Below, in pieces: positions 4 through 30,527 of a stretch of 30,724 bases of DNA. Under the pieces are notes generated by a model. It was given only the letters and a program-made list of their open reading frames with translations. It made no database searches and was not told the DNA's origin. Location: positions 1 through 30,724 of the IMG/VR virus record IMGVR_UViG_3300009136_000025. One strand, written 5' to 3'. Numbering within the stretch: the first letter of the stretch is position 1; every line of letters starts with the position of its first letter. Origin of the DNA: a virus. The position numbers and the translations under genes were made by a program.

Positions 4-75
4 TATAATATAGTACCTACAGGATAGGTATTACAAGTTTTATGACACACGTACTGAACTAGGACTGAATTACAA
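4..75 (+). promoter_or_regulatory. Left promoter/operator block (copy A)
   Basis: Contains a perfect -10 hexamer TATAAT (4-9), the inverted repeat TACCTA-N5-TAGGTA (14-30), TTACAAGTTT (31-40) and then CTGAACTAGGACTGAATTA. The same order of elements recurs at 827-890 (copy B), about 818 bases away. The -35 would fall outside the window. I infer a rightward promoter with an operator over the start site, but no gene follows before the leftward radC-like gene, so its target is unclear. Confidence 0.4.
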
Positions 76-156: not shown

Positions 157-188
157 CCACATGTACCGGACTTGTACCGTACATGTGG
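157..188. repeat. Perfect 10-bp inverted repeat
   Basis: CCACATGTAC (157-166) and GTACATGTGG (179-188) are exact reverse complements with a 12-base spacer that itself holds TTGTACC. It sits between the C run and the 11-bp repeat array. It could be a hairpin or a protein site; nothing in the sequence decides between these. Confidence 0.7.
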
Positions 189-263
189 AGAGAGTCAGGA
201 GAGAGTCAGGAGGGAGTCAGGAGAGAGTCAGGAGAGAGTCAGGAGAGAGTCAAAAGAGAGTCA
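187..263. repeat. Seven tandem 11-bp repeats (GGAGAGAGTCA)
   Basis: Seven head-to-tail 11-mers start at 187, 198, 209, 220, 231, 242 and 253. Five are exact GGAGAGAGTCA, one is GGAGGGAGTCA and the last is AAAGAGAGTCA. Eleven bases is about one helical turn, so all copies present the same face of the DNA. The array is non-coding: reading frames through it give only low-complexity Glu/Arg/Ser peptides. A protein-binding array (packaging, replication or partition) or a neutral minisatellite are both possible. Confidence 0.85.
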
Positions 264-269
264 GGAGAA

Positions 270-285
270 AGGCTTTTTCAAGCCT
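270..285 (-). terminator. Possible terminator of the radC-like gene
   Basis: AGGCTT (270-275) and AAGCCT (280-285) form a 6-bp stem with a 4-base loop, about 24 bases past the stop of the leftward gene. Read on the - strand the stem is followed by TTTCTCC, a weak U tract. Weak but well placed. Confidence 0.4.
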
Positions 286-802: not shown

Positions 803-848
803 TTGTTTGTTTCCTTCATACCTTAATATAATACCTATTCTGTAGGCA
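803..848 (+). promoter_or_regulatory. Rightward promoter with operator (copy B)
   Basis: -35 TTGTTT (803-808), an 18-base spacer and a perfect -10 TATAAT (827-832), followed directly by TACCTA-N5-TAGGCA (832-848) over the expected start site. It matches copy A at 4-30 and continues in register into TTACAAGTTT. The inverted repeat fits an operator that would block initiation. It lies upstream of the portal gene and the whole late operon. Confidence 0.5.
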
Positions 849-868
849 TTACAAGTTTTCTGACTAAA

Positions 869-968: not shown

Positions 969-2807
969 ATGAGTCTTTTTGATGTTTTTAAGCGCAAGAA
1001 AAACCCAATGCTTCAAAGTGACGGTTTTTCAGATAGTTCTATTAATGGCTTTAACTCTTGGAACAACGGTTTTTTACAAACCTTATACCAGAGATTTATA
1101 AACCCCACAAAAGCCAATGTTACTATTACAGCAGAAAGCGCTTTTCAACTGGCCGCGTATTGGTGTGCTGTTCGTGCCATATCAGAAGACATTGCAAAAC
1201 TTCCAATTAACTTTTTCAAAATAGATAGTGAAGGCAAGAAAAAGCCTGTAATAGACACCCCCCTTTTGCAGACTTTACGTTTTGGATTCAATGACGAAAC
1301 GGATTCAATGACAGGCGTTCAAACGCTCGTCCAATGGATGTTAACTTTTGGAAATGCTTACGCCGAAATTTCTCGAAATAGTGTTGGCGATATTCAATTA
1401 ATTTTGATTCACCCTACACGCGTACAGGTACACAGAGCGGGTGCGGGCGAGCTTGTTTATACCATTACGACAAACACGGAAATAGACCAGCGAGGCAGGC
1501 GAAATAATGTTTCTACAGCCCTTCATGAAGACGAGATTTTACACCTAAAAGGCATGGGAAATGGCGTAATGGGCTATTCTGTTGGACAGGTGGCAGCGGA
1601 AAGCATGGGCATAAGTGTAGCGGCTCAAGATTTTACGGGCGCTTTCTTTGGAAATAACCTTAGCATAGGCGCCGCTTTAGAGACTGACAAAGCCCTGAAC
1701 AAAGAGCAAAAAGAAGCCATTCGTGACGACTGGGAAAAGAAGTTTGGCGGCTCTTCAAATGCTGGGGCTATGGCCATACTTGACAGAGGTTTTAAATTCA
1801 ACCGTTTACAAATGACCAGTACAGACGCGGAACTACTGAACACAAGAAAATTTCAGGTCGAAGAAGTCGCGCGCTGGTTTAGAATTCCCCCCCACAAATT
1901 AATGGATATGACCAAGAGCACGTTTAACAATGTGGAACAGCAAAATATTAACTATTCAACGGACACTTTGACGCCTTGGATTAGACGTTTAGAAGTTCAG
2001 TTAAAATTCAAATTTCATAGAACAGATAACACAGTTATAGACTTCGATGAAAAGGCTTTAACTCGTGGTGATATGGCAGCGCGGGCCAAGTTTTCAAAAG
2101 AAATGTTCGCAATGGGCGTTATGTCAGGAAATCAAATTGCACTGGCAGAAGGTCTACCAGAGTATACAGGCGGCGAAGTTCGTTATATTCCTTTAAATTT
2201 AACGCCAGCTATTGAAGGCGCAAAATCAGCCCATTTAGACAACGAAATCAAAGAAAAGACACTTGCGGAGCCTGAAGAGTCCGAAGAGCAAGACCAGAAT
2301 GACCCAGAAAGCACAGAAGACCCCCCAGAAGGCGAAGAGTCAGAGCGGGAGAGTACTGGCAAGGACGACGCCGAAACGGTCGAACAGACGGCGGCTGTAA
2401 GCGTTTACATACCAAGTATGTCCAACAGTATTGACCGTCTCACGAAGAAAGAATTTTACACTTTCCAAGACGCCAAAACGAAGACACCAGAAAGACAGCT
2501 CGAAATATTGACGGCCTTTTACTGTAAGTTTGAAAATGAATTATCCGAATGTTTGAAAATTCACTCCAGTTATTTATGCAGCATATTGAAAAAAGAACTG
2601 TTTCAAGATGACGACATTTTGACATTATCAAAACAGATTTGCAGCGAAGAAAAAGCACCAACTTACCAAGAGCAAACCAGCAAGATAATTGAAATACTTC
2701 TTTCAGATATTGCAGGGATTGAAGACGCGCCAACTCTTGGCGAAATTCGCAACGGTGACGACGGCCAATATCAATTTACAATTACGGGGTGGAATAGAAT
2801 TTCATGA
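969..2807 (+). CDS. Phage portal protein (HK97 family), C-terminally extended
   Basis: The portal is the dodecameric ring at the head vertex through which DNA passes and to which the tail attaches. The core (roughly residues 40-410) has the usual traits of HK97-type portals: AYWCAVRAISEDIAKLPINF near the N-terminus, a QWMLTFGNAYAEI segment, FRIPPHKLMDMTKSTFNNVEQQ and TLTPWIRRLEVQLKFK. Typical members have about 400-450 residues; this one has 612. The extra part is an acidic Glu/Asp/Pro/Ser linker (about 430-475) and a helical tail with several Cys. A TTG start at 951 would add MYNGLS, but ATG 969 is preferred because the predicted transcript start is at about 948. It ends in an ATGA overlap with the collagen-like gene. 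Confidence 0.88.
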   Translation: MSLFDVFKRKKNPMLQSDGFSDSSINGFNSWNNGFLQTLYQRFINPTKANVTITAESAFQLAAYWCAVRAISEDIAKLPINFFKIDSEGKKKPVIDTPLLQTLRFGFNDETDSMTGVQTLVQWMLTFGNAYAEISRNSVGDIQLILIHPTRVQVHRAGAGELVYTITTNTEIDQRGRRNNVSTALHEDEILHLKGMGNGVMGYSVGQVAAESMGISVAAQDFTGAFFGNNLSIGAALETDKALNKEQKEAIRDDWEKKFGGSSNAGAMAILDRGFKFNRLQMTSTDAELLNTRKFQVEEVARWFRIPPHKLMDMTKSTFNNVEQQNINYSTDTLTPWIRRLEVQLKFKFHRTDNTVIDFDEKALTRGDMAARAKFSKEMFAMGVMSGNQIALAEGLPEYTGGEVRYIPLNLTPAIEGAKSAHLDNEIKEKTLAEPEESEEQDQNDPESTEDPPEGEESERESTGKDDAETVEQTAAVSVYIPSMSNSIDRLTKKEFYTFQDAKTKTPERQLEILTAFYCKFENELSECLKIHSSYLCSILKKELFQDDDILTLSKQICSEEKAPTYQEQTSKIIEILLSDIAGIEDAPTLGEIRNGDDGQYQFTITGWNRIS

Positions 2808-4567
2808 AGTATTCAAAAAATAAACTACTCTCTGAAAGTGAACAGCGGCAAATCAACCAAGCCGAAAAGTATGAAGCGAAAAAAGAAACTTTTCTAGATA
2901 TGCTCTTGGGCAAAGATGGTGAAGCGGGCGAAACGGGTGAACGCGGTGAACGGGGTGAAATTGGCCTTGAAGGAAAACGGGGCCTCGCAGGGATGCAGGG
3001 CGAAACTGGTCTTATGGGTAAACAAGGGCCAAAGGGCGACAAGGGCGACAAGGGCGACAAGGGCGAAAAAGGCGACGACGGCGACGACGGGGAAGACGGG
3101 CGCGGTATTGCTCATACTTTTGTCAGTAGAAACGGTGATTTAATAATAGATTACACGGACGGCACACAGGAAAATTCTGGCCATGTTCAAGGCCCAGCGG
3201 GGCAGCGCGGTATGGCTGGTTTATCGGGCTCAGTTATTAGCGGCGGCGGCGGCGGCGGCGGTGGCACGGCTCAACCTTATCCTTTTGTCGTTGGCCCTGT
3301 TGGGACTAATGCCCTTTTTACTACAATTCAGTCGGCTGTAGATGCCGCAGAATTGGCAGGATTAAGAGCAAATATTATGGTTCTAGCTGGGGTGTATAAT
3401 GAAAATGTTTTAATAGTTAACGACTGTATTTCTCTTATCGGTTTTACTGGAAACTCTAGCTGTACACAGTTATTCGGAAACTTGACCTATTCGCCCACTG
3501 TTGAAAGCGTTTTTGCTTTACAGGGCATGGAAATTAACGGCCAAGTTTCTGTTACTGGAAATCAATCAACAATTTTATGGGCAAATGCAACAACTATAAA
3601 TAGCTTAGGTGGTGTAACGCCTCTTTTGTTAACTAATACTCATGCTGACAGCACATTTGCTTCACGCGTACACGTAAGAATTACAATGCTGGATAATTCG
3701 GGGCCTGCGGTCATTACAGATTCAATGAGCCTTGATATTTATAATGGTGAATTTAGGCGAAATGGTAATGGAGGTGCAAACGCCACTGTACTTCAAATGA
3801 CTGGCACGGCTAGTGGATTTTTTAAGAATACTTTTCTTAAAGGTCAAGCTAGGTTTAGCGGTTCAAGTCTTATCACATATCACGGTGGCGCAATCGAAAT
3901 GAGTGGTGGCGCCGCGTGTATTAATTTTGACGCTTTTGCCTCTGCGGTTGTTATTACAAGCACACAGCTATCAACGGGAGGCCCTTTAATTTTCCCAACT
4001 AATTCGCCCTCGCAATTTTTCTATCAAAATATAGCGCCTTCTTTTAACTCTACTTTTTTAACAAACTGGGGTACTCAACAGGGCATAAATGCGGTTGTTC
4101 TGGATAACAGTAGTCAAGGCGACAAATTTTTAGCCAATGACGGTTCATATAAATTCCCTGTTGAGTTTAATGGCCTTGACGAGACGACAAGATCCACAAC
4201 AAATGCAAACCCCAGTTTTGTTGAATATTCGGGAGACGGGACGAGCCCCACTTTTACAACGCCGACTTTGCTTGCTGGTACTTACAGACTTGAAGTTTTA
4301 TGGACTGCAAATATTACAGGTTCGCCAAAAAGCGCCCTTTTTATTCCAAAGGTTGACGGCTCCAGCATTTTGACAGGAGCGATTTCAAATATTGCCGTTG
4401 AGTTTCCAGCGGGCACCTCAAATAACCCATTTTCTTATAAGGTTAATAACCTAGTACTGACAGCCGCAGCACACACCATAAGTTTGGCATATGTGGCAGA
4501 GGCAGCCACGGGCGGGACGGTCACAATTTTTGAGTATAAATACACCTTAGTAAGAATCAGCGATTAA
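2804..4567 (+). CDS. Collagen-like fibre protein with beta-helix and jelly-roll-like end
   Basis: A 587-residue likely trimeric virion fibre. After a charged N-terminus comes an uninterrupted collagen-like run of about 22 Gly-X-Y triplets (residues 36-101), ending in acidic GDD/GED triplets. Next is an IAHTFVSRNGDLIIDYTDG segment seen in many phage collagen-like fibres, a short second collagen patch (GPAGQRGMAG), an eight-Gly linker and about 330 residues beginning TTIQSAVDAAELAG, which resemble pectate-lyase-type right-handed beta-helix repeats. The last 120 residues are beta-rich and could be a TNF/C1q-like trimeric head. It overlaps the portal stop by ATGA, so it is translated with the head genes. 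Its position before the protease and capsid suggests a head fibre or decoration rather than a tail fibre, but that is inference. Confidence 0.75.
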   Translation: MKYSKNKLLSESEQRQINQAEKYEAKKETFLDMLLGKDGEAGETGERGERGEIGLEGKRGLAGMQGETGLMGKQGPKGDKGDKGDKGEKGDDGDDGEDGRGIAHTFVSRNGDLIIDYTDGTQENSGHVQGPAGQRGMAGLSGSVISGGGGGGGGTAQPYPFVVGPVGTNALFTTIQSAVDAAELAGLRANIMVLAGVYNENVLIVNDCISLIGFTGNSSCTQLFGNLTYSPTVESVFALQGMEINGQVSVTGNQSTILWANATTINSLGGVTPLLLTNTHADSTFASRVHVRITMLDNSGPAVITDSMSLDIYNGEFRRNGNGGANATVLQMTGTASGFFKNTFLKGQARFSGSSLITYHGGAIEMSGGAACINFDAFASAVVITSTQLSTGGPLIFPTNSPSQFFYQNIAPSFNSTFLTNWGTQQGINAVVLDNSSQGDKFLANDGSYKFPVEFNGLDETTRSTTNANPSFVEYSGDGTSPTFTTPTLLAGTYRLEVLWTANITGSPKSALFIPKVDGSSILTGAISNIAVEFPAGTSNNPFSYKVNNLVLTAAAHTISLAYVAEAATGGTVTIFEYKYTLVRISD

Positions 4568-4579
4568 AGGAGCGTAAAA

Positions 4580-5458
4580 ATGGCGTCAAAAAAATGGATA
4601 GGAACAAGCGTAATAATTGGCGATTATAGCGAGCCGACAAACTGGGAGCCTTCAGGCGTTCCAGTAGCAGCCGATGACGTTATTTTTGCCGATAGCAATC
4701 AAGATGTTTTGGCAGGTTTTGACCAGTCAGCAGTAGCCCTGAATAGCATAACTTTTGATCAAAGTTACACGGGCGTTATAGGGACGAGCCAAAGCGATTT
4801 TTTACAGGTAGCGGCGAGCGTTTCGCAAATTGGCCAAACTCGAACAAATGTCGGAACTCTGACAGGTTCAGCGCGTTTGAATTTAGACTTTGGAAGTTCA
4901 ACGCCTTGTGCAATTACTATTTTTAATAGTGGCACTCTTGCCCGTGACCAAAACAGGCAGGCTTTACGCTTACGCATGTCAAACGCTTCCACGACTGTAG
5001 ACATGTACGCGGGCTCTGCTTCAATCTCAGACGATACCGAAAACGCCTCTACTTTGCAAGCGGCTTTCATTAGTGATTTTGGCTCGCTTAATATTGGTAA
5101 TAATGTGACCATTACGGACATAGTGACCAACGGCGGCACAATGACGCTAAGTTCTAGCGTTTTGGGGGATGCACAAATCAAAGGCGGCATCTTTAACCAA
5201 TATGACGGAATTGTAGTAAGTACTATAAATTCGGCAACTGTCAGCGGTGGAACTTATAACAGTTATGCCAGCGGGTTAATATCGGCCTTGGAAATGGTTG
5301 GCGGTACAACCGATTTGACCAAGACCCAATTACCAAAAACAATCACTACTGCAACGCTCGGATTAGGTGCAGTTTTGATAATTGATACGGCAGTTCAAAC
5401 CATAACCAGCGAGCTGAAATTACCTTCAGCTGGACAATTTACAGTCAGCGTAAGATAA
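4580..5458 (+). CDS. Beta-strand-rich surface protein, probable fibre/decoration
   Basis: A 292-residue protein with no Cys. It is rich in Ser, Thr, Gly, Asn and Val and has short repeating beta-strand units (for example TLSSSVLGDAQIKGGIFNQY and SATVSGGTYNSY), which suggests a beta-helix or solenoid. The N-terminal NWEPSGVPVAADDVIFADS resembles the NW-x-GxP-xx-DDVxF opening found in repetitive secreted adhesin-like proteins. It follows the collagen-like gene by 12 bases with a good AGGAG site and precedes the head protease by 9, so it is part of the same operon. I infer a virion surface protein that pairs with the collagen-like fibre. No catalytic motif is visible. Confidence 0.55.
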   Translation: MASKKWIGTSVIIGDYSEPTNWEPSGVPVAADDVIFADSNQDVLAGFDQSAVALNSITFDQSYTGVIGTSQSDFLQVAASVSQIGQTRTNVGTLTGSARLNLDFGSSTPCAITIFNSGTLARDQNRQALRLRMSNASTTVDMYAGSASISDDTENASTLQAAFISDFGSLNIGNNVTITDIVTNGGTMTLSSSVLGDAQIKGGIFNQYDGIVVSTINSATVSGGTYNSYASGLISALEMVGGTTDLTKTQLPKTITTATLGLGAVLIIDTAVQTITSELKLPSAGQFTVSVR

Positions 5459-5467
5459 GGAGTAAAA

Positions 5468-6331
5468 ATGTTTAAAAGCCCATACTTAATGATCGACGAA
5501 TTACACCTAAATATGATGGTGCAAAAGTCCAGCAATTTAAAAGAAGTTCAGATAACAGCTGGTAAGGCCCTTTTGAAAATGGCTAATGAGGAAAGAGTAG
5601 TAGATTTAAACTTTTCCCCAGTTCTGCAAAAAGCTGGAAGCCGCGCGATGATTTCGATTGACGGGCCTATGGTTTTTAATCCTGATTTAATGGACAGAAT
5701 TATTTTCGGCGCTGTCAGTACTCATGAACTTATGCAGGCTGTTATAGATGTGTCTGAAGACAAGAAAATTGAAACAGTTGTTTTCAATGTAAACAGTTGC
5801 GGCGGCGAAGCCAGTAAAATACATGTTTTGGCTGATATGGTTCAGGCCCTTTCTAAGATAAAAGCGACGGCTTCAGTAAATACGGGCATTATGGCCAGCG
5901 CTGCTTTTTTTGTTGCTTCCCAAACAAGCAAAGTTTTCGTTGACGACAAGTTAAACGAAACTGGCAGTATTGGCACAGTCACAGTTTTAACAGACTTTAC
6001 CGAAGCCATGAAAATGGCAGGTTTAAAAGTTACCAAAATTTCGACAGGGCCTCTCAAGGGGGCTGGTATGCAGGGAACGCCCATAAGCCCAGCAATTGTG
6101 AAAATGGTTCAAGAAAAAGTTGACCAGATTCAAAAGGGATTCTCTGAAGCTGTTGAACGTGCAAGACCTGAAGCCGACATGAAAGACGGGAGCAAAGCGC
6201 GAAGCGGTGCAAGCTTCTTTTTTGAAGATGCAAAAGAGCTAGGTTTAGCAGATCAAATAAAAAGCGTTGACGAAGCTTTTGCTTTTCTCGAACAGGGTAA
6301 CAGGGCTAGCAAAATCAAACAAACTTTGTAG
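5468..6331 (+). CDS. Head maturation protease, SppA/S49 family
   Basis: A 287-residue serine protease of the ClpP/crotonase fold that would process the capsid and its scaffolding region during head assembly. Visible S49 landmarks are NVNSCGGEA (109-115, oxyanion loop), MASAAFF with the presumed nucleophile Ser144, DDKLNETGSIGTVTV (159-173), and STGPLKGAG with the presumed general-base Lys197. The length is usual for phage S49 proteases that lack the second SppA domain. A strong AGGAG site precedes ATG 5468. The place between portal and capsid genes fits, apart from the two inserted fibre-like genes. After it comes a 190-base gap with its own promoter signals for the capsid. Confidence 0.85.
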   Translation: MFKSPYLMIDELHLNMMVQKSSNLKEVQITAGKALLKMANEERVVDLNFSPVLQKAGSRAMISIDGPMVFNPDLMDRIIFGAVSTHELMQAVIDVSEDKKIETVVFNVNSCGGEASKIHVLADMVQALSKIKATASVNTGIMASAAFFVASQTSKVFVDDKLNETGSIGTVTVLTDFTEAMKMAGLKVTKISTGPLKGAGMQGTPISPAIVKMVQEKVDQIQKGFSEAVERARPEADMKDGSKARSGASFFFEDAKELGLADQIKSVDEAFAFLEQGNRASKIKQTL

Positions 6332-6340
6332 GAATTAAAA

Positions 6341-6360
6341 TTAGTTCTGAACTAGTTCAG
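6341..6360. promoter_or_regulatory. Operator-like 14-bp palindrome upstream of capsid promoter
   Basis: TTAGTTCTGAA (6341-6351) merges with TAGTTCAG to give the perfect palindrome CTGAACTAGTTCAG (6347-6360). It is the same box family as 869-901 and 24310-24350, here as an inverted pair. It abuts the -35 of the candidate capsid promoter, the position expected of an activator site. Confidence 0.6.
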
Positions 6361-6389
6361 TTGCATTTCTAAAAAAGGGCGTTTATACT
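6361..6389 (+). promoter_or_regulatory. Candidate capsid promoter
   Basis: TTGCAT (6361-6366), 17-base spacer and TATACT (6384-6389, 5 of 6 to consensus). Transcription would start near 6396, giving a leader of about 125 bases before the capsid gene. A separate promoter would allow the large amount of capsid that is needed. Confidence 0.45.
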
Positions 6390-6523: not shown

Positions 6524-7816
6524 ATGACAATCCAAGCACAGCAAGCACACATTAAAACTTTAATGGGTGAACTTGAAGCAATTGACCAAGGTTCAGAAGA
6601 TTACAGCGCGAAGCTCGACATGATCGAGTCAGAGCAAGAAAAGCTGACAAAGCTTGAGGCTGATTCTGAAAGACATAAAACCCTTCAAGCTTCTTTGAGT
6701 TCTTTCAAGGCGCCGAAAACCTCTCAATCTGGTTCTGTTTCTGGTCGAGTTGTCGTTAAAGACGGCTTCACAGATGACCCGAAAGTCGGCTTTAAATCAG
6801 CTGGTGAATTGATGAGCTGTATAGCCATGAATACTAACGGGCGCGCTCTAAACCTTCAGGCAGATAAACGGCTTGAGCATATTGCCAATATTATGCAAAC
6901 TGGTGGAACGCACACAACCGTAAATGACGGCTTGATGATACCAGCAGAACTACTCCCAGAAATTCATACTTTGGGCCTAAATGCTTCTGAAGACTGGTTT
7001 AGTCAGATAACAGTAAATAACACTTCTTTGAACGCTAAAGAGATCCGCAGAACAGCGGCTACAACTCGCGGCGGTGGTGGTGTTGGTCTTGTGTCCTATT
7101 GGGGTGCAGAAGGTGCACAGCTTAACAAGTCTCGTGAAGTCTATGAAAAGACAACTGTCAAAGTCGATAAACTATACGTTTACACTGAAGTGACAGACGA
7201 AGATTTGAGTGACTTTGCAGGTCTTGAAAGTGATCTAAGGACTAAAGCTCCTGAACTCATGCGCATTAAAAAACAAGAAGCTGTTTTGTTTGGTGACGGT
7301 GTTGCAAAACCTCTAGGTTTCAGCAACGGCGGCGACACTGCAACAATTACCCGTGGCACAGCCGACACTGTAGACGCTGATGACGTCGCGCAAATGAACG
7401 CGGCTTTCCTTAATCCTTCTGGTGGTTTTTGGATGATGAACCAAGCTGTTAGAAGCAAGGTTCAACAGTTCGTTGTAGGTACTCAACCTGTATGGCAAAA
7501 CGACTTCACCAAAAACGCAAACGGTACGCTATTTGGCAAGCCAATTTACAATACTGAAGATTGTGAAGCCCTTGGTGAAATCGGTGACGTTTATCTTGTT
7601 AACCCTTCAGCCTATTACGCGCTGCAAAAGGTTGGCGGCGATAAGTTTGCGCAATCCATGCACCTTCGTTTTGACTTCGATGAGCATGCATTTCGTTGGA
7701 CTACTCGTTTCGGCGGTACAAGCATTTATAACAGCCCGTATATCCCACGCAATAACAACGGTGGAGCGGCTAAACAAAACCTCTCTAACTTTGTCATTCT
7801 TGGCGCGTCAGCTTAA
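6524..7816 (+). CDS. Major capsid protein (HK97 fold)
   Basis: A 430-residue HK97-type capsid precursor. The first 90 or so residues are charged and helical (AHIKTLMGELEAIDQGSEDY onward), as in the delta/scaffolding domain removed by the head protease. The remainder shows typical signatures: GGTHTTVNDGLMIPAELLPEI at the domain start, YVYTEVTDEDLSDFAGLESD, KKQEAVLFGDGVAKPLGF, NGTLFGKPIYNTEDCEALGEIGDVYLVNPSAY and FRWTTRFGG. An in-frame ATG at 6509 would add MELKK, but the GGAG at 6511-6514 sits 9 bases before ATG 6524, so 6524 is chosen. Transcription probably comes from its own promoter at 6361-6389 as well as from upstream. Confidence 0.9.
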   Translation: MTIQAQQAHIKTLMGELEAIDQGSEDYSAKLDMIESEQEKLTKLEADSERHKTLQASLSSFKAPKTSQSGSVSGRVVVKDGFTDDPKVGFKSAGELMSCIAMNTNGRALNLQADKRLEHIANIMQTGGTHTTVNDGLMIPAELLPEIHTLGLNASEDWFSQITVNNTSLNAKEIRRTAATTRGGGGVGLVSYWGAEGAQLNKSREVYEKTTVKVDKLYVYTEVTDEDLSDFAGLESDLRTKAPELMRIKKQEAVLFGDGVAKPLGFSNGGDTATITRGTADTVDADDVAQMNAAFLNPSGGFWMMNQAVRSKVQQFVVGTQPVWQNDFTKNANGTLFGKPIYNTEDCEALGEIGDVYLVNPSAYYALQKVGGDKFAQSMHLRFDFDEHAFRWTTRFGGTSIYNSPYIPRNNNGGAAKQNLSNFVILGASA

Positions 7817-20178: not shown

Positions 20179-20337
20179 ATGATAGCAGTAAAAAAAGAGC
20201 AAACACAAGGGAAGAAACAAACACAAAAAACTGAGTATGACAAAATGCTAGAAAACATAAAACTAATCGTTACCAGACACAGACACGAAACGATTAAAAA
20301 AGAGCATTTCCTGAATAGGGGTTTTGTCATTAAATAG
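20179..20337 (+). CDS. Small basic ORF of 52 residues
   Basis: ATG 20179 to TAG 20337, preceded by a GAGGG site about 8 bases upstream. The product is highly charged (KKEQTQGKKQTQKTEY, then TRHRHETIKKEH), with Gln/Lys-rich start. The end of the frame contains the first GGTTTTGTCA repeat. It may be a real small regulator or a chance frame. Confidence 0.35.
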   Translation: MIAVKKEQTQGKKQTQKTEYDKMLENIKLIVTRHRHETIKKEHFLNRGFVIK

Positions 20338-20403
20338 GGAGGTTTTGTCAGTACAATTCTGTCACCTATATAAATATTTCTTGACACAAGAGAAATCGAA
20401 AAG

Positions 20404-20434
20404 AGCCATAAGTCATTGCGACTTATGGCTTTTT
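20404..20434 (+). terminator. Strong intrinsic terminator, likely bidirectional
   Basis: AGCCATAAGTC (20404-20414) pairs perfectly with GACTTATGGCT (20420-20430): an 11-bp stem, five-base loop and a TTTT tail. On the - strand it is followed by CTTTTC, so it may also stop the convergent leftward operon. It closes the XRE operon. Confidence 0.85.
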
Positions 20435-20469
20435 GCATTGTAGGAGACTAGTAAAAGCATTGTTGAGAA

Positions 20470-20488
20470 TGCAGACTGGCAGTCTGCA
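20470..20488. promoter_or_regulatory. 19-bp perfect inverted repeat (operator-like)
   Basis: TGCAGACTG-G-CAGTCTGCA is symmetric over nine bases each side of a single central G. A second, looser inverted repeat ACAGT-N6-ACTGT (20497-20512) follows. Both are in a gene-free gap between convergent operons, so they could be regulatory, recombination or origin sites rather than promoters. Confidence 0.55.
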
Positions 20489-20539
20489 ATCTAAGCACAG
20501 TAGTGTCACTGTTTTGGGGGGTTTTGTCAGTGTTTTTAG

Positions 20540-22272: not shown

Positions 22273-22306
22273 AAAAAATCGGCCCAAACTTTTCAGGTTT
22301 GAGCCG
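22273..22306 (-). terminator. Terminator behind the integrase gene
   Basis: On the - strand CGGCTCAAAC and GTTTGGGCCG (22280-22306) form a 10-bp stem with one G-U pair, followed by ATTTTTT (22273-22279). It lies 26 bases after the integrase stop. Confidence 0.8.
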
Positions 22307-22331: not shown

Positions 22332-23597
22332 TTAAATGTCGAGGGCTTTGACCTCTTGCGACTTTATGCGCCCGTAATGCTTGTCAACCATTCGCAGGCT
22401 GTTTCCCATTGCCGCCGCAACTCGCGTACCCGATACGCCTTGTCTGATTAACAGACTCCCGAAAGTTCTGCGAGTACTCAAACAGTTCATGCCTTCGCTA
22501 AATCGTTTTTGGGTGTACCTAGTGAAAGCGCCCGTTAGCCAATGGTCACGCGATGCAACAAGGCAGGGAAACAAGGCAGAGCCCCCTTTATGGCCTTTTA
22601 AATAGGTATCTAAAGCTTTCTTGAGACGTGCACCAACATTTATATTACGGCGGCGCCTTGCGGCTTTTATTGATCGAAAATCGTTTGGGCTAACTCTTAA
22701 AACCCATTGACCGTTGATTTCAAAATAATCTGTCAGTTTTAACCCGCGTAATTCTGAGGCTGATGTACCAGCAAAAAAGAGTGTAGAAAACAAGGCTTTA
22801 TCATAATCATTTTCTAGTGTTTTAAGAAACTTGTTTACTTCTTTTATAGTATGGTACTGGATGTCTGTTTTATGTTCTGGCTTTTTATCCATTACGTCAG
22901 GCATAGGGCTTTCAAAATCATATAGTGAAGACATGCGGTTATAGAATTGTATGAAATATTTTCTTTTAGCATGCCACCTTTGAGAGCTTGAAGCGCAATT
23001 TTCAGTCAGGAAATGTTGAATTTCAATTGGCTTGATTTCGTCTAGTTTTTTATCTAGGTGGTCTTTAAAGAATTTCTTTATTGGTCTTACATATGAATTC
23101 GGTCTAACAACATGTTGAATTGTTGCGGCGTATTCTTTTAGGGCTTCGCCAATGGTTGGCAATGAATCAGCAGCCATTATTACTCTGCCCTCGCGCGTTT
23201 TGGCAAATGCTTTGTACATTGCCTCAAATGGTAGCGCAATTTTTAACTGTGCTTTTAGTGCGGAAACCTCGCGCATTAATGTTTGAATGACAAAGCTTTT
23301 ATTTGAATCATCTTTTATATGTTCTACTGTTTGCAGGTCTTCTTCAGTTGATGGTATTTCGGGCAAATCTCCAAAGAATAATTCGTAAGCTTTCGCCGTT
23401 ACTGAACATTTTGGATTTACTAAAAGCCATTCAATTTGTTTAGCCAGTCCTATTGCAATTTGCTCGTCTTTTGTCTTGCAGCTTTTGCGTACTCTAGTAC
23501 CGTCGTTTTTTGTAAAACGGATTGTCCACATTTTGCCTTGCTGTTTAATCACAACTTTGTTTGGTCGTCCACCTTTATTTATTTTATCGTTTCCCAT
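22332..23597 (-). CDS. Tyrosine recombinase/integrase with atypical active site
   Basis: A 421-residue protein with the domain plan of phage integrases: an N-terminal arm/AP2-like basic part (KGGRPNKVVIKQQGKMWTIRF), a SAM-like core-binding helix bundle (about 145-240, TIGEALKEYAATIQHV) and a C-terminal catalytic domain (about 245-421). Key positions are unusual: the box I TGxR motif reads AGTS (Ser279 in place of the Arg), box II HxLR reads LSTR (Leu373 for His, Arg376 kept), the box III GH reads GN (Asn399), while the nucleophile Tyr408 (DKHYGRI) is present. It follows the HTH gene by 5 bases on the same strand with a GAGGGA site. Whether it is active, altered or degenerate is open. An attP could lie in the short gap after it, but no core is evident. 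Confidence 0.8.
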   Translation of the reverse strand: MGNDKINKGGRPNKVVIKQQGKMWTIRFTKNDGTRVRKSCKTKDEQIAIGLAKQIEWLLVNPKCSVTAKAYELFFGDLPEIPSTEEDLQTVEHIKDDSNKSFVIQTLMREVSALKAQLKIALPFEAMYKAFAKTREGRVIMAADSLPTIGEALKEYAATIQHVVRPNSYVRPIKKFFKDHLDKKLDEIKPIEIQHFLTENCASSSQRWHAKRKYFIQFYNRMSSLYDFESPMPDVMDKKPEHKTDIQYHTIKEVNKFLKTLENDYDKALFSTLFFAGTSASELRGLKLTDYFEINGQWVLRVSPNDFRSIKAARRRRNINVGARLKKALDTYLKGHKGGSALFPCLVASRDHWLTGAFTRYTQKRFSEGMNCLSTRRTFGSLLIRQGVSGTRVAAAMGNSLRMVDKHYGRIKSQEVKALDI

Positions 23598-23602
23598 ATC
23601 TT

Positions 23603-24022
23603 TTATCCCTCTATTGCGTTAGAAATATTTTTAAATGCTAATATTATGAAGTCCCTCTTTTTTCCGCTTAAAGATTCTATATGCGGCGGTACTATTTCAC
23701 GTAGTTTGGCGATTGTTTTGGCTAGCTCAAAGACAACAAATTCTTTGCTTTCTTCGCCTTCAAATTTATCGAGAATAGCTAGCACGGCGTCATTTTCTCT
23801 TACTGTATGATCTATATGCGGTTCAATCATATCTTTGATTCTGCCCCATGTACTTCCAGCAATTGACGCGTTGCCTTTGTTATACCATGAGGAAATGGTT
23901 GCGGCTGAAACTTCTAATTTTTTGGCTAAACCGTAATTGCTCGGTATATCTTCAGCGGCTTTAAACTTATTTAGAGCGGCCAGTATTTTATGGTCTATTT
24001 TTATTTGTTTTGTTAACGACAT
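23603..24022 (-). CDS. HTH regulator upstream of integrase (repressor candidate)
   Basis: A 139-residue protein with a helix-turn-helix in residues 28-50: SNYGLAKKLEVSAATISSWYNKG. The remainder is helical with no cleavage motif; DHTVRENDAVLAILDKFEGEESKEF links to a C-terminal helix pair, perhaps a dimer domain. It is the first gene of the leftward lysogeny unit and shares a 350-base control region with the rightward early operon, the usual place for a phage repressor. Binding to the TTCAGAACTAG boxes or the TACACTAA boxes is possible but not shown. Confidence 0.65.
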   Translation of the reverse strand: MSLTKQIKIDHKILAALNKFKAAEDIPSNYGLAKKLEVSAATISSWYNKGNASIAGSTWGRIKDMIEPHIDHTVRENDAVLAILDKFEGEESKEFVVFELAKTIAKLREIVPPHIESLSGKKRDFIILAFKNISNAIEG

Positions 24023-24271
24023 TTTCCACCTTTCTTAGTTGTATGCTTAACACAGTTCTTAATCTCAACTATCACACATTTGTATTATAGTGCGGTTCTT
24101 GCTCCTTAACACTACAATACTCTAAAATACACTAAGAAACAAAGATTTATACTCATAATCACAACTTTATTACACTAAAAACTTGATTGTGTGCTGAAAT
24201 GGTGCACTCCTATTTCAGTATTAATTCAGGCATAAACCCAAAAAAACCCCAATAAATCTCAAAAAAAGGTA

Positions 24272-24300
24272 TTGAATATCATTTTATATAGATCTATTCT
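24272..24300 (+). promoter_or_regulatory. Candidate early rightward promoter
   Basis: TTGAAT (24272-24277), a 17-base spacer, and TATTCT (24295-24300). It would start near 24307, next to the box array at 24310-24350, so a protein bound there would block it. The match is moderate, but spacing and context support it. Confidence 0.45.
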
Positions 24301-24309
24301 TATTCCATG

Positions 24310-24350
24310 TTCAGAACTAGTTCAGAACGTTCAAAACTAGTTCAGTAAAC
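24310..24350. promoter_or_regulatory. Four TTCAGAACTAG-type boxes (operator array)
   Basis: TTCAGAACTAG (24310-24320), TTCAGAACG (24321-24329), TTCAAAACTAG (24330-24340) and TTCAGTAAAC (24341-24350) are contiguous. The 11-bp units are the reverse complement of the TTAGTTCTGAA family at 869-901 and 6341-6360. Here they lie just after a promoter, a repression-type position, upstream of the excisionase-like gene. Confidence 0.6.
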
Positions 24351-24371
24351 TAAGCAAAAAAGGGAGTAAGA

Positions 24372-24554
24372 ATGTCAAAATTTGAAATGATATTGGTTGA
24401 AGATATTTCTAACCTAATCGGGGTTAAGGAAGCAACTATAAAATTATGGGCACGGCATAAAAAAATACCCGCCTATAAATTTGGCAGTCTATGGAAATTT
24501 GATAGGTCGGAGGTTCTCGCATGGATAGAAACGCGAAAGATCCAGAACTTATGA
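24372..24554 (+). CDS. Excisionase-like winged-HTH protein
   Basis: A 60-residue DNA-binding protein of the excisionase/HTH_17 type: VEDISNLIGVKEATIKLWARHKKIPAYKFGSLWKFDRSEVLAWIETRK. This pattern, helix-turn-helix followed by a KxGxxWKF wing and a final helix with W, is that of Xis-like and MerR-like small proteins. A GGGAG site precedes the ATG. First gene of the early operon; it probably acts in excision with the integrase or as an early regulator. Confidence 0.75.
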   Translation: MSKFEMILVEDISNLIGVKEATIKLWARHKKIPAYKFGSLWKFDRSEVLAWIETRKIQNL

Positions 24555-28036: not shown

Positions 28037-28445
28037 TACAAGAGAGCAAACGCCATTTGAATTTCATACAGGAGTGACAGAGAGCGCAACACTTCCAACA
28101 GGTGATTATACAATCAAAGGACTTGAACGCTTTATCACTATTGAACGTAAAAGCTTACCTGATTTAATGGCTTCAATAAGCAGAGATCGCGAAAGGTTTG
28201 AAAAAGAATTGCACAGAATGCAGGGCTATAAAAAGCGGGCTGTCATTGTTGAGGGCGAATACAGCAGAATTGTAAAAGGTCAATACAAATCAAAGATGTC
28301 AAACGCCGCAGCTATTGCAACTCTTGGAGCTTTCCAGCAGCGGTACAATGTGCCCTTTCACTTTTGCGGTGAACACGGGGCAATTTTCTGTTACAGCCTA
28401 TTGAAGGGGTTTTACAAAGATATTCAAAAGCTCAAGGAACTATAA
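28020..28445 (+). CDS. ERCC4-type nuclease
   Basis: A 141-residue single-domain nuclease. The ERCC4/XPF active-site signature is complete: GDX12ERKX3D with Gly28-Asp29, Glu42-Arg43-Lys44 and Asp48 (TGDYT...TIERKSLPDL); the N-terminal DTREQTP is also typical, with Asp6. XPF-type nucleases cut branched or flap DNA. The helix-hairpin-helix part of XPF is absent. In phages such minimal ERCC4 enzymes occur near replication genes and may process recombination intermediates or replication forks. Confidence 0.82.
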   Translation: MIILIDTREQTPFEFHTGVTESATLPTGDYTIKGLERFITIERKSLPDLMASISRDRERFEKELHRMQGYKKRAVIVEGEYSRIVKGQYKSKMSNAAAIATLGAFQQRYNVPFHFCGEHGAIFCYSLLKGFYKDIQKLKEL

Positions 28446-28560
28446 AGTGCCATGCAGTTTTCAGATAATTACAGAATGTCTATAAAGTGCCATGCAGTTT
28501 TTAGTAAATTACCAAATTTCTATAATGTGCCATGCAAAAAATAATAAATAAAGGGTAAAC
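28441..28560. repeat. Three 40-bp tandem repeats (iteron-like)
   Basis: Units start at 28441, 28481 and 28521. The first 19-20 bases are near identical (TATAAAGTGCCATGCAG, third TATAATGTGCCATGCAA) and the remainders diverge, so the conserved core recurs at an exact 40-base period, close to four helical turns. It fills the gap between the ERCC4 nuclease and the next small gene. The core has an inverted copy at 10478-10493. It could be a replication origin, a phage promoter array (TATAAT-like starts) or a regulator site. Confidence 0.8.
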
Positions 28561-29859: not shown

Positions 29860-30039
29860 TTGGAAAATAGTGAAGAAACAATAAAACGCCTTAAGCATTA
29901 TAATGTAATTTTATACAATATGCTAACAACATTAATAGACGCTTATATTGATGAGGATAAAGAAACTATAGATGCCGTCATATTCGACTATACGACGGAA
30001 ATAACAGCTACTTATAGTAAAGGAGATAACAAGAGCTAA
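29860..30039 (+). CDS. Small acidic protein, TTG start
   Basis: A 59-residue protein. TTG 29860 is chosen because AAGGGG lies 7 bases upstream and the previous gene stops at 29858; an upstream TTG (29839) would overlap it. The product is acidic and helical (LKHYNVILYNMLTTLIDAYIDEDKE). It overlaps the following kinase by TAATG. No known motif. Confidence 0.5.
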   Translation: MENSEETIKRLKHYNVILYNMLTTLIDAYIDEDKETIDAVIFDYTTEITATYSKGDNKS

Positions 30040-30527
30040 TGCGCATACTCATAACGGGCAATATAGCAAGCGGTAAATCAACCCTAATAGAGGCCCTTAT
30101 AAGGCGCCTATCTGAGGAGGCCCATATCAACATGGCCCATATAGGCATAGACACCATGAGGGAGCTATACAGCAACGGTACAGCAGAGGGAGAGACGCTG
30201 GCACGTAAGCGATTCAAGCGCGCTGTATATGGCCTGCCTGATAGCTTCATAGAGTGTTGCCCCTATAGCCTTGCATATAACACCATCATAGATAAGGTAG
30301 ACTACATAGTCCTAGTCACATGTGATACAGCTACATGTATAGAGCGCTACCATAGCAGGCCCTACTCTGTACCACTCGCAATGGAAACTCCCGTTGAGTG
30401 CTCTGTTGTAGCAGTCAATGCTAAGATAAAGCGATTGGCTTACAACATGTGCTATCATGGTGACAACATAGGTGCAATCTATAACAGCCTACTATCTGAG
30501 ATAAGGGCTACTAGTAGTACAGAGTAG
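30039..30527 (+). CDS. P-loop kinase-like protein with divergent codon use
   Basis: A 162-residue P-loop protein. The Walker A motif is GNIASGKST (residues 7-15, Lys13, Ser14), followed by IGIDTMREL, an acidic Asp at a position used by nucleoside/nucleotide kinases. This type phosphorylates small molecules or nucleotides; the substrate cannot be read. Base use is unlike neighbours: AAG far exceeds AAA, GAG exceeds GAA, TTC only, with many ATA, CTA and AGG codons, whereas nearby genes prefer AAA, GAA and TTT. The start overlaps the previous stop (TAATG) after a GGAG-type site, so it is wired into the operon yet looks acquired recently. Confidence 0.7.
   Translation: MRILITGNIASGKSTLIEALIRRLSEEAHINMAHIGIDTMRELYSNGTAEGETLARKRFKRAVYGLPDSFIECCPYSLAYNTIIDKVDYIVLVTCDTATCIERYHSRPYSVPLAMETPVECSVVAVNAKIKRLAYNMCYHGDNIGAIYNSLLSEIRATSSTE

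Follow-up and report, generated by a model that had tools for sequence, protein, structure and literature searches.

Does an integrase that lacks half of its catalytic residues still integrate? The residue set R-K-H-R-H-Y (RKHRH-Y) is the textbook definition of the tyrosine recombinases, and it is the basis on which integrase genes are annotated as dead. The gene considered here, int, lies in what we call the window, the whole 30,724-nt stretch of DNA that was analysed (positions 1-30,724 of the IMG/VR record IMGVR_UViG_3300009136_000025). Comparing sequences, we think it probable that int serves a temperate HK97-type phage as a functional integrase, of lambda-type lineage and with a rewired active site. 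With somewhat less assurance, we favor site-specific recombination by a minimal set of Lys, Arg-II and Tyr plus an arginine moved into the beta2-beta3 loop, most of the pentad having been replaced. The gene and the positions of its catalytic set, with the corresponding residues of the relatives described below, are as follows.

22332-23597, minus strand: int, a 421-aa lambda-type tyrosine recombinase without Arg-I, His-II and His-III, recognized by its open reading frame and by profile and fold matches
22761-22763, minus strand: Ser279, aligned with Arg-I; L002 has Thr here, L029 and L032 have Gly
22665-22667, minus strand: Lys311, the catalytic lysine, kept by alignment
22479-22481, minus strand: Leu373, at the His-II position; Arg in L029 and L032
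22470-22472, minus strand: Arg376, the Arg-II residue, kept by alignment
22401-22403, minus strand: Asn399, aligned with His-III; the four family members all have Asn here
22374-22376, minus strand: Tyr408, the nucleophile, kept by alignment

The window protein matches the PHROG integrase profile at 5.9e-21. With the Pfam Phage_integrase profile (PF00589 superfamily) it scores 21.7 bits, under the curated cut-off of 27.1 bits, and the scores fall under that cut-off in all five phage records carrying the family. These profile matches identify int as a divergent member of the tyrosine recombinases. Box I reads A276-G277-T278-S279-A-S-E-L, the lysine segment K311-A-A-R-R-R-R-N-I-N-V, box II L373-S-T-R376-R-T-F, box III G398-N399-S, and the nucleophile segment H-Y408-G, and the spacing of these motifs leaves little doubt over the box assignment. 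The catalytic set R-K-H-R-H/W-Y is therefore represented by S279, K311, L373, R376, N399 and Y408, three of the six being kept. An earlier sequence-only reading had placed Ser279, Leu373 and Asn399 at the three lost positions, and the alignment agrees with it on every one; it had counted only Arg376 and Tyr408 as kept, which they are, and had not included in that set the catalytic lysine, Lys311, which is kept as well.

Relatives were sought among 2.9 million viral contigs. A search for near ones returned a single protein, L002 on contig G001, which is 62-64% identical; its box I reads S-G-V-T, and the other boxes LSTR, GN and Y. The distant relatives, whose identity to the window protein is 22-26% along its entire length, are L029 and L030, from two phages recovered in two samples (G212 and G213, 99.9-100% identical), and L032, on G214; their active sites read AGIGLKEL, RDLR, RN and Y. 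The triple loss, with Lys, Arg-II and Tyr kept, is common to these three lineages, and an asparagine stands nine residues ahead of the tyrosine in four of four family sequences. Neither the 50,697 phage records nor the 72,556 plasmid records searched contained a member of the family, and an Acidobacteriota sample of 199 genomes had no relative of int; a search of the window protein against phages, plasmids and GTDB contigs found only a canonical integrase, 25% identical.

The window protein and L002 are 56% identical in the arm domain, 53% in the core-binding domain, 72% in the catalytic domain and 86% over the last 57 residues. Their four-fold degenerate third bases, in contrast, agree at 16 of 51 positions in the catalytic domain and at 3 of 21 in the last 57 codons, which is near chance. 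A protein conserved while its silent sites are saturated rules out, in practice, a decaying remnant. By this comparison int is under purifying selection, which peaks in the catalytic domain, near the tyrosine and the degenerate boxes. The open reading frame is intact and full length in the window, L029, L030 and L032. In L002 a frameshift in the variable linker splits int (4995-5303 and 5306-6250, with a TAATG overlap), parting the arm-binding domain from the remainder; the split may be a sequencing error, a pseudogene or a natural two-part enzyme.

For comparison, a panel of 40 other phage integrases, 39 from IMG/VR and one from a GTDB contig, was aligned to the window protein. The panel was collected mostly via patterns around box II and the tyrosine, so that those columns are biased and the Arg-I column alone, with R in 39 of 40 and H in one, is free of bias. 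The lysine column has K in 39 and R in one; H occupies the His-II column in 38 and the His-III column in 37 (D in two, Q in one), and Arg-II and Tyr are present in all 40. One residue is missing in six panel sequences, while two or more of Arg-I, His-II and His-III are missing in none of the 40. Set against this panel, the triple loss in the window protein is beyond chance variation. Two panel integrases, L092 and L097, have Asp at the His-III position together with Arg three residues before the lysine (K-3), and are perhaps a second lineage drifting off the canonical pentad.

Three domains can be assigned to the protein.

23418-23558, minus strand: arm-binding (AB) domain, residues about 14-60, predicted by AF2 as three beta-strands and one helix
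22878-23162, minus strand: core-binding (SAM-like) domain, residues about 146-240, from AF2 helices and a Pfam Phage_int_SAM_3 match (E 0.003, below the cut-off)
22335-22877, minus strand: catalytic domain, residues 241-421, the most constrained part of int

The AF2 model, built on a 41-sequence alignment, has a mean pLDDT of 76, rising to about 90 in the bulk of the catalytic domain, apart from the 303-316 loop and the C-terminus. The predicted arm-binding domain has strands at 16-20, 23-29 and 35-41 and a helix at 45-60, and the lambda Int tetramer structure 1z1g_B aligns over residues 14-417, with a high overall rmsd of 21.4. Among solved structures the model matches XerA (Z 20.0, rmsd 14.2, 249 residues aligned), the Tn1549 integrase (Z 17.6, rmsd 3.0, 264 aligned) and lambda Int (Z 15.2, rmsd 3.8, 258 aligned); the large rmsd to XerA is probably due to a different domain placement. 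SroF and MrpR are also among the fold matches, at Z 13.2-14.8. As modeled, the protein has the tyrosine-recombinase catalytic fold and a canonical lambda-type N-terminal arm-binding domain. The beta2-beta3 loop, residues 303-316, holds R308, K311 and R314-R316, and is predicted with low confidence at 307-313.

This loop holds the two residues that we consider candidates for the missing arginine.

22674-22676, minus strand: Arg308 (K-3), candidate Arg-I substitute, invariant in the family, in the flexible beta2-beta3 loop
22653-22655, minus strand: Arg315 (K+4), second candidate substitute, invariant in the family

The arginines invariant over the four family catalytic domains are R308, R315, R376 and R385. 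In the panel, Arg is found at the R308 position in 6 of 40 sequences and at the R315 position in 3 of 40. Arg284 and Arg301 were also considered as general substitutes and rejected, as L029 and L032 have Ser at the first and Lys at the second. A divergent enzyme relying on Arg284, Lys311 and nearby Arg was one of the options in the sequence-only reading, and it is the one that is best supported: Lys311 is indeed kept, but Arg284, named first, varies, and the nearby arginines that are invariant are Arg308 and Arg315. Resting on two to three lineages and chosen after several positions had been inspected, the case for Arg308 or Arg315 as the replacement is suggestive.

Replacement of Arg-I has a precedent. 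IntDOT, the CTnDOT integrase, has Ser259 at the Arg-I position, and its replacement is Arg285, two residues before the catalytic lysine, whereas the candidate in the window family stands at K-3 or K+4. IntCTnDOT is, like the window protein, a complex tyrosine recombinase without Arg-I at the usual place; the function of Arg-I in the CTnDOT integrase is taken over by a downstream Arg (PMC8138268, citing Kim et al. 2010), and across its subgroup the catalytic Arg sits in one of two places, with the first Arg alone less conserved and the rest of the pentad strictly preserved (PMC8138268). The window family differs from IntCTnDOT in being without both histidines too (Leu373, Asn399), in being distant in sequence, and in residing in phages rather than ICEs. 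The IntDes recombinases, which we liken to the window family by their description, have an arm domain, a shifted Arg-I and Tyr in place of His-II, although they are known only from Desulfovibrio and loss of His-III is not reported for them (PMC8138268). In Cre, the H289A mutant, missing His-II, still recombines (PMC4381057), and by this analogy His-II is the less critical residue; Cre and Flp are severely impaired by the loss of Arg-I (PMC4499138; PMC4381057).

The genes and signals next to int are those below.

23603-24022, minus strand: HTH (CI-like) repressor-like gene, the next gene upstream of int, across a 5-bp gap
24372-24554, plus strand: divergent HTH_17/excisionase-like gene (Pfam HTH_17, 6.9e-11; PHROG excisionase and regulator, 5e-9)
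22274-22305, minus strand: terminator-like hairpin and T run, 3' of int, read from the sequence

Capsid, portal, Erf, exonuclease and DnaD-like genes in the window mark it as a temperate HK97-type phage. The repressor-like gene matches Pfam Phage_CI_repr at E 0.0013, below the cut-off, and a small HTH repressor-like gene also lies directly upstream of int, in the same direction, in L002, L029/L038 and L032/L036. In all five phage records, four of them possibly incomplete, the family int is the only tyrosine recombinase, and no serine recombinase was found in any of them.

Between the repressor-like and excisionase-like genes, at 24023-24371, lies an intergenic switch region; its recurring palindromes, CTGAACTAGTTC, are in part kept in L002 as CTGAATTAGTTCAG and are likely repressor operators. 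A similar stretch occurs at window 6339-6362. A promoter-like repeat, GTCATAAAACTTGYAATACCTACATTGTAGGTA.TATATTA, whose -35 and -10 enclose an operator palindrome, precedes several small genes, with copies at window 6-46 and 824-864 (minus strand) and in G001 at about 7321-7386, 30203, 30947, 31771 and 32255. One G001 copy is directly upstream of int, while the window int is without one. We considered the five G001 repeats as recombination sites and rejected them, since they have a -35/-10-like promoter around the operator palindrome and precede other small genes; they are taken as regulatory.

G214, a complete genome with a 127-bp direct terminal repeat, has an attP-like site near int. About 0.9 kb past the int stop, G214 carries GTCTCCGAAGCCGTAGGTCGCGCGTTCGAATCGCGCCGGGTGCA, a 43-bp 3' half of tRNA-Arg(CCG). 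It agrees at 39 of 40 positions with an annotated tRNA-Arg gene whose anticodon is CCG, and its identity to another tRNA-Arg gene, from Pseudorhodobacter, is 92%; ARAGORN found no complete tRNA at this site. The G214 genome has four TTTGTGCCC repeats, all of them flanking the tRNA core, on both sides. In mycobacteriophages with tyrosine integrases, attP usually has a 30-45 bp common core with a tRNA 3' half, flanked by putative arm-type sites (PMC10865867). G213 has eight copies of TGTACGC in the 240 bp directly past int, a density reached in none of 60 shuffles.

The corresponding features of the window are these.

20238-20529, minus strand: attP-like region, with three TGACAAAACC copies and TGACAC/GTGTCA around a diverged centre, about 1.8 kb past int
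20470-20488, minus strand: palindrome TGCAGACTGCCAGTCTGCA, which we take as a candidate for the core of this region; the equivalent spot in L002 carries CCGATTTGTAATCGG

The 10-mer TGACAAAACC occurs at 20520-20529, 20341-20350 and 20320-20329 and nowhere else in the window. Its sister phage G001 has three copies at the corresponding place and none elsewhere in the record, and the spacing of the copies is 179/21 in the window and 178/21 in G001. As a cluster of this kind arises in about 3 of 200 shuffles of the 3 kb past the window int, the argument rests on this conservation between the two phages. The segment between the arms has diverged and the two phages have unlike palindromes there, which would fit the use of different targets. 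No tRNA match was found in the attP-like regions of the window, L002 and L038, so G214 alone has an identifiable core; the window has no tRNA genes or Rfam families, and no host attB or lysogen was found. G001 carries a tRNA-Met(CAT) of its own (L044 18944-19016, equal to G001 38944-39016). A 9-mer cluster at window 187-282 was considered as a set of arm sites and rejected, since it belongs to a tandem repeat with an 11-bp unit, GGAGAGAGTCA, that spans 176-282 close to the left end of the contig, beside a gene at 310-786.

As read from these sequences, an attP with arm-type repeats near int is clear in G214 and G213, and in the window and G001 the repeats are present and the core is uncertain. 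The attachment sites point to real integration. Normal integration by relatives with the same residues, which the sequence-only reading had set against a loss of function, is thereby suggested in part, by the anatomy of these sites.

From these observations we infer catalytic activity, the substituting arginine and the host site. Across the family S/T/G, L/R and N occupy the places of Arg-I, His-II and His-III, and the lysine, Arg-II and the tyrosine are unchanged. Tyr408 would attack the scissile phosphate, Arg376 would stabilize it, and Lys311 would serve as the general acid. The charge of Arg-I would most likely come from the flexible beta2-beta3 loop, from Arg308 or Arg315, much as in the CTnDOT integrase; both histidines may be dispensable, or Asn399 may assume part of the role of His-III. 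The enzyme would recombine the attP about 1.8 kb downstream of int, with TGACAAAACC as arm sites, and a tRNA gene would probably be the host site, by analogy with G214. Such an enzyme would be close to the lambda-type phage integrases, which have the same three-domain architecture and the same Lys, Arg-II and Tyr, an attP with arm repeats near int and a repressor beside it, and a tRNA 3' half as core, as in G214; it differs from them in that Arg-I, His-II and His-III are all replaced and the Pfam score is below the cut-off. Three lineages keep the unusual site beside insertion-like sites, and thus the gene probably encodes an active enzyme rather than being dead.

The most serious rival, also among the options in the sequence-only reading, is a DNA-binding regulator with the tyrosine-recombinase fold, in which catalysis has been lost and which represses or activates phage promoters; SPbeta MrpR/YopR and phi3T SroF are of this kind. 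MrpR is without Arg-I, His-II, Arg-II and His-III and keeps Lys and Tyr, yet it is a repressor without recombinase activity (PMC10516654), so that conserved catalytic residues are no proof of activity. MrpR and SroF have the fold in common with the window protein (Z 13-15), and int and the HTH repressor-like gene beside it are arranged like an operon. MrpR, however, consists of CB and CAT domains only, and SPbeta has a separate serine integrase, SprA (PMC10516654), whereas the window family keeps Arg-II (Arg376) and a predicted arm-binding domain, and these phages have no other recombinase. MrpR also has dispersed operator repeats; here TGACAAAACC is confined to the attP-like region of the window and G001 rather than spread over promoters, although other dispersed repeats exist, and the tRNA-Arg 3' half beside the G214 int is well explained by integration only. 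With the arm-binding domain, Arg-II, the attP-like site and int as sole recombinase, a regulator fits less well, and we consider it rather unlikely.

Some phages use host Xer enzymes, and int could likewise be an accessory integration protein that assembles the synapse by binding attP at its arms and core, with a host recombinase such as XerC/XerD doing the cleavage. This would account for the attP sites and the degenerate active site together, but Lys, Arg-II and Tyr are all kept, the C-terminal segment around the tyrosine is the most conserved part of the protein, and the G214 core is a tRNA and not dif; we give this idea little credence. That int is an inactive, decaying remnant, another of the options in the sequence-only reading, has the three missing residues and the split L002 copy in its favor, but it is contradicted by strong purifying selection concentrated in the catalytic domain, by the intact frames, by the same substitutions recurring across lineages at about 25% identity, and by the maintained attP-like sites, and we regard it as highly improbable.

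If int is indeed a working integrase, a tyrosine recombinase left with half of the textbook set can reconstruct its active site by relocating an arginine and dispensing with the histidines; the family would then be a natural test of which charges are required, and a warning against dismissing such genes as pseudogenes. Were it instead an MrpR-like regulator with an attP-like site, it would represent a stage on the way from an enzyme to a repressor.

Three other features of the window may be mentioned. A 587-aa protein encoded at 2804-4567, adjoining the portal gene, has collagen-like repeats, with a weak match to an Scl adhesin profile. The protein encoded at 30039-30527 is P-loop kinase-like, with weak AAA_18 and Zeta-toxin matches. 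At 28440-28519, in a stretch without a long open reading frame, there is a 40-bp imperfect tandem duplication.
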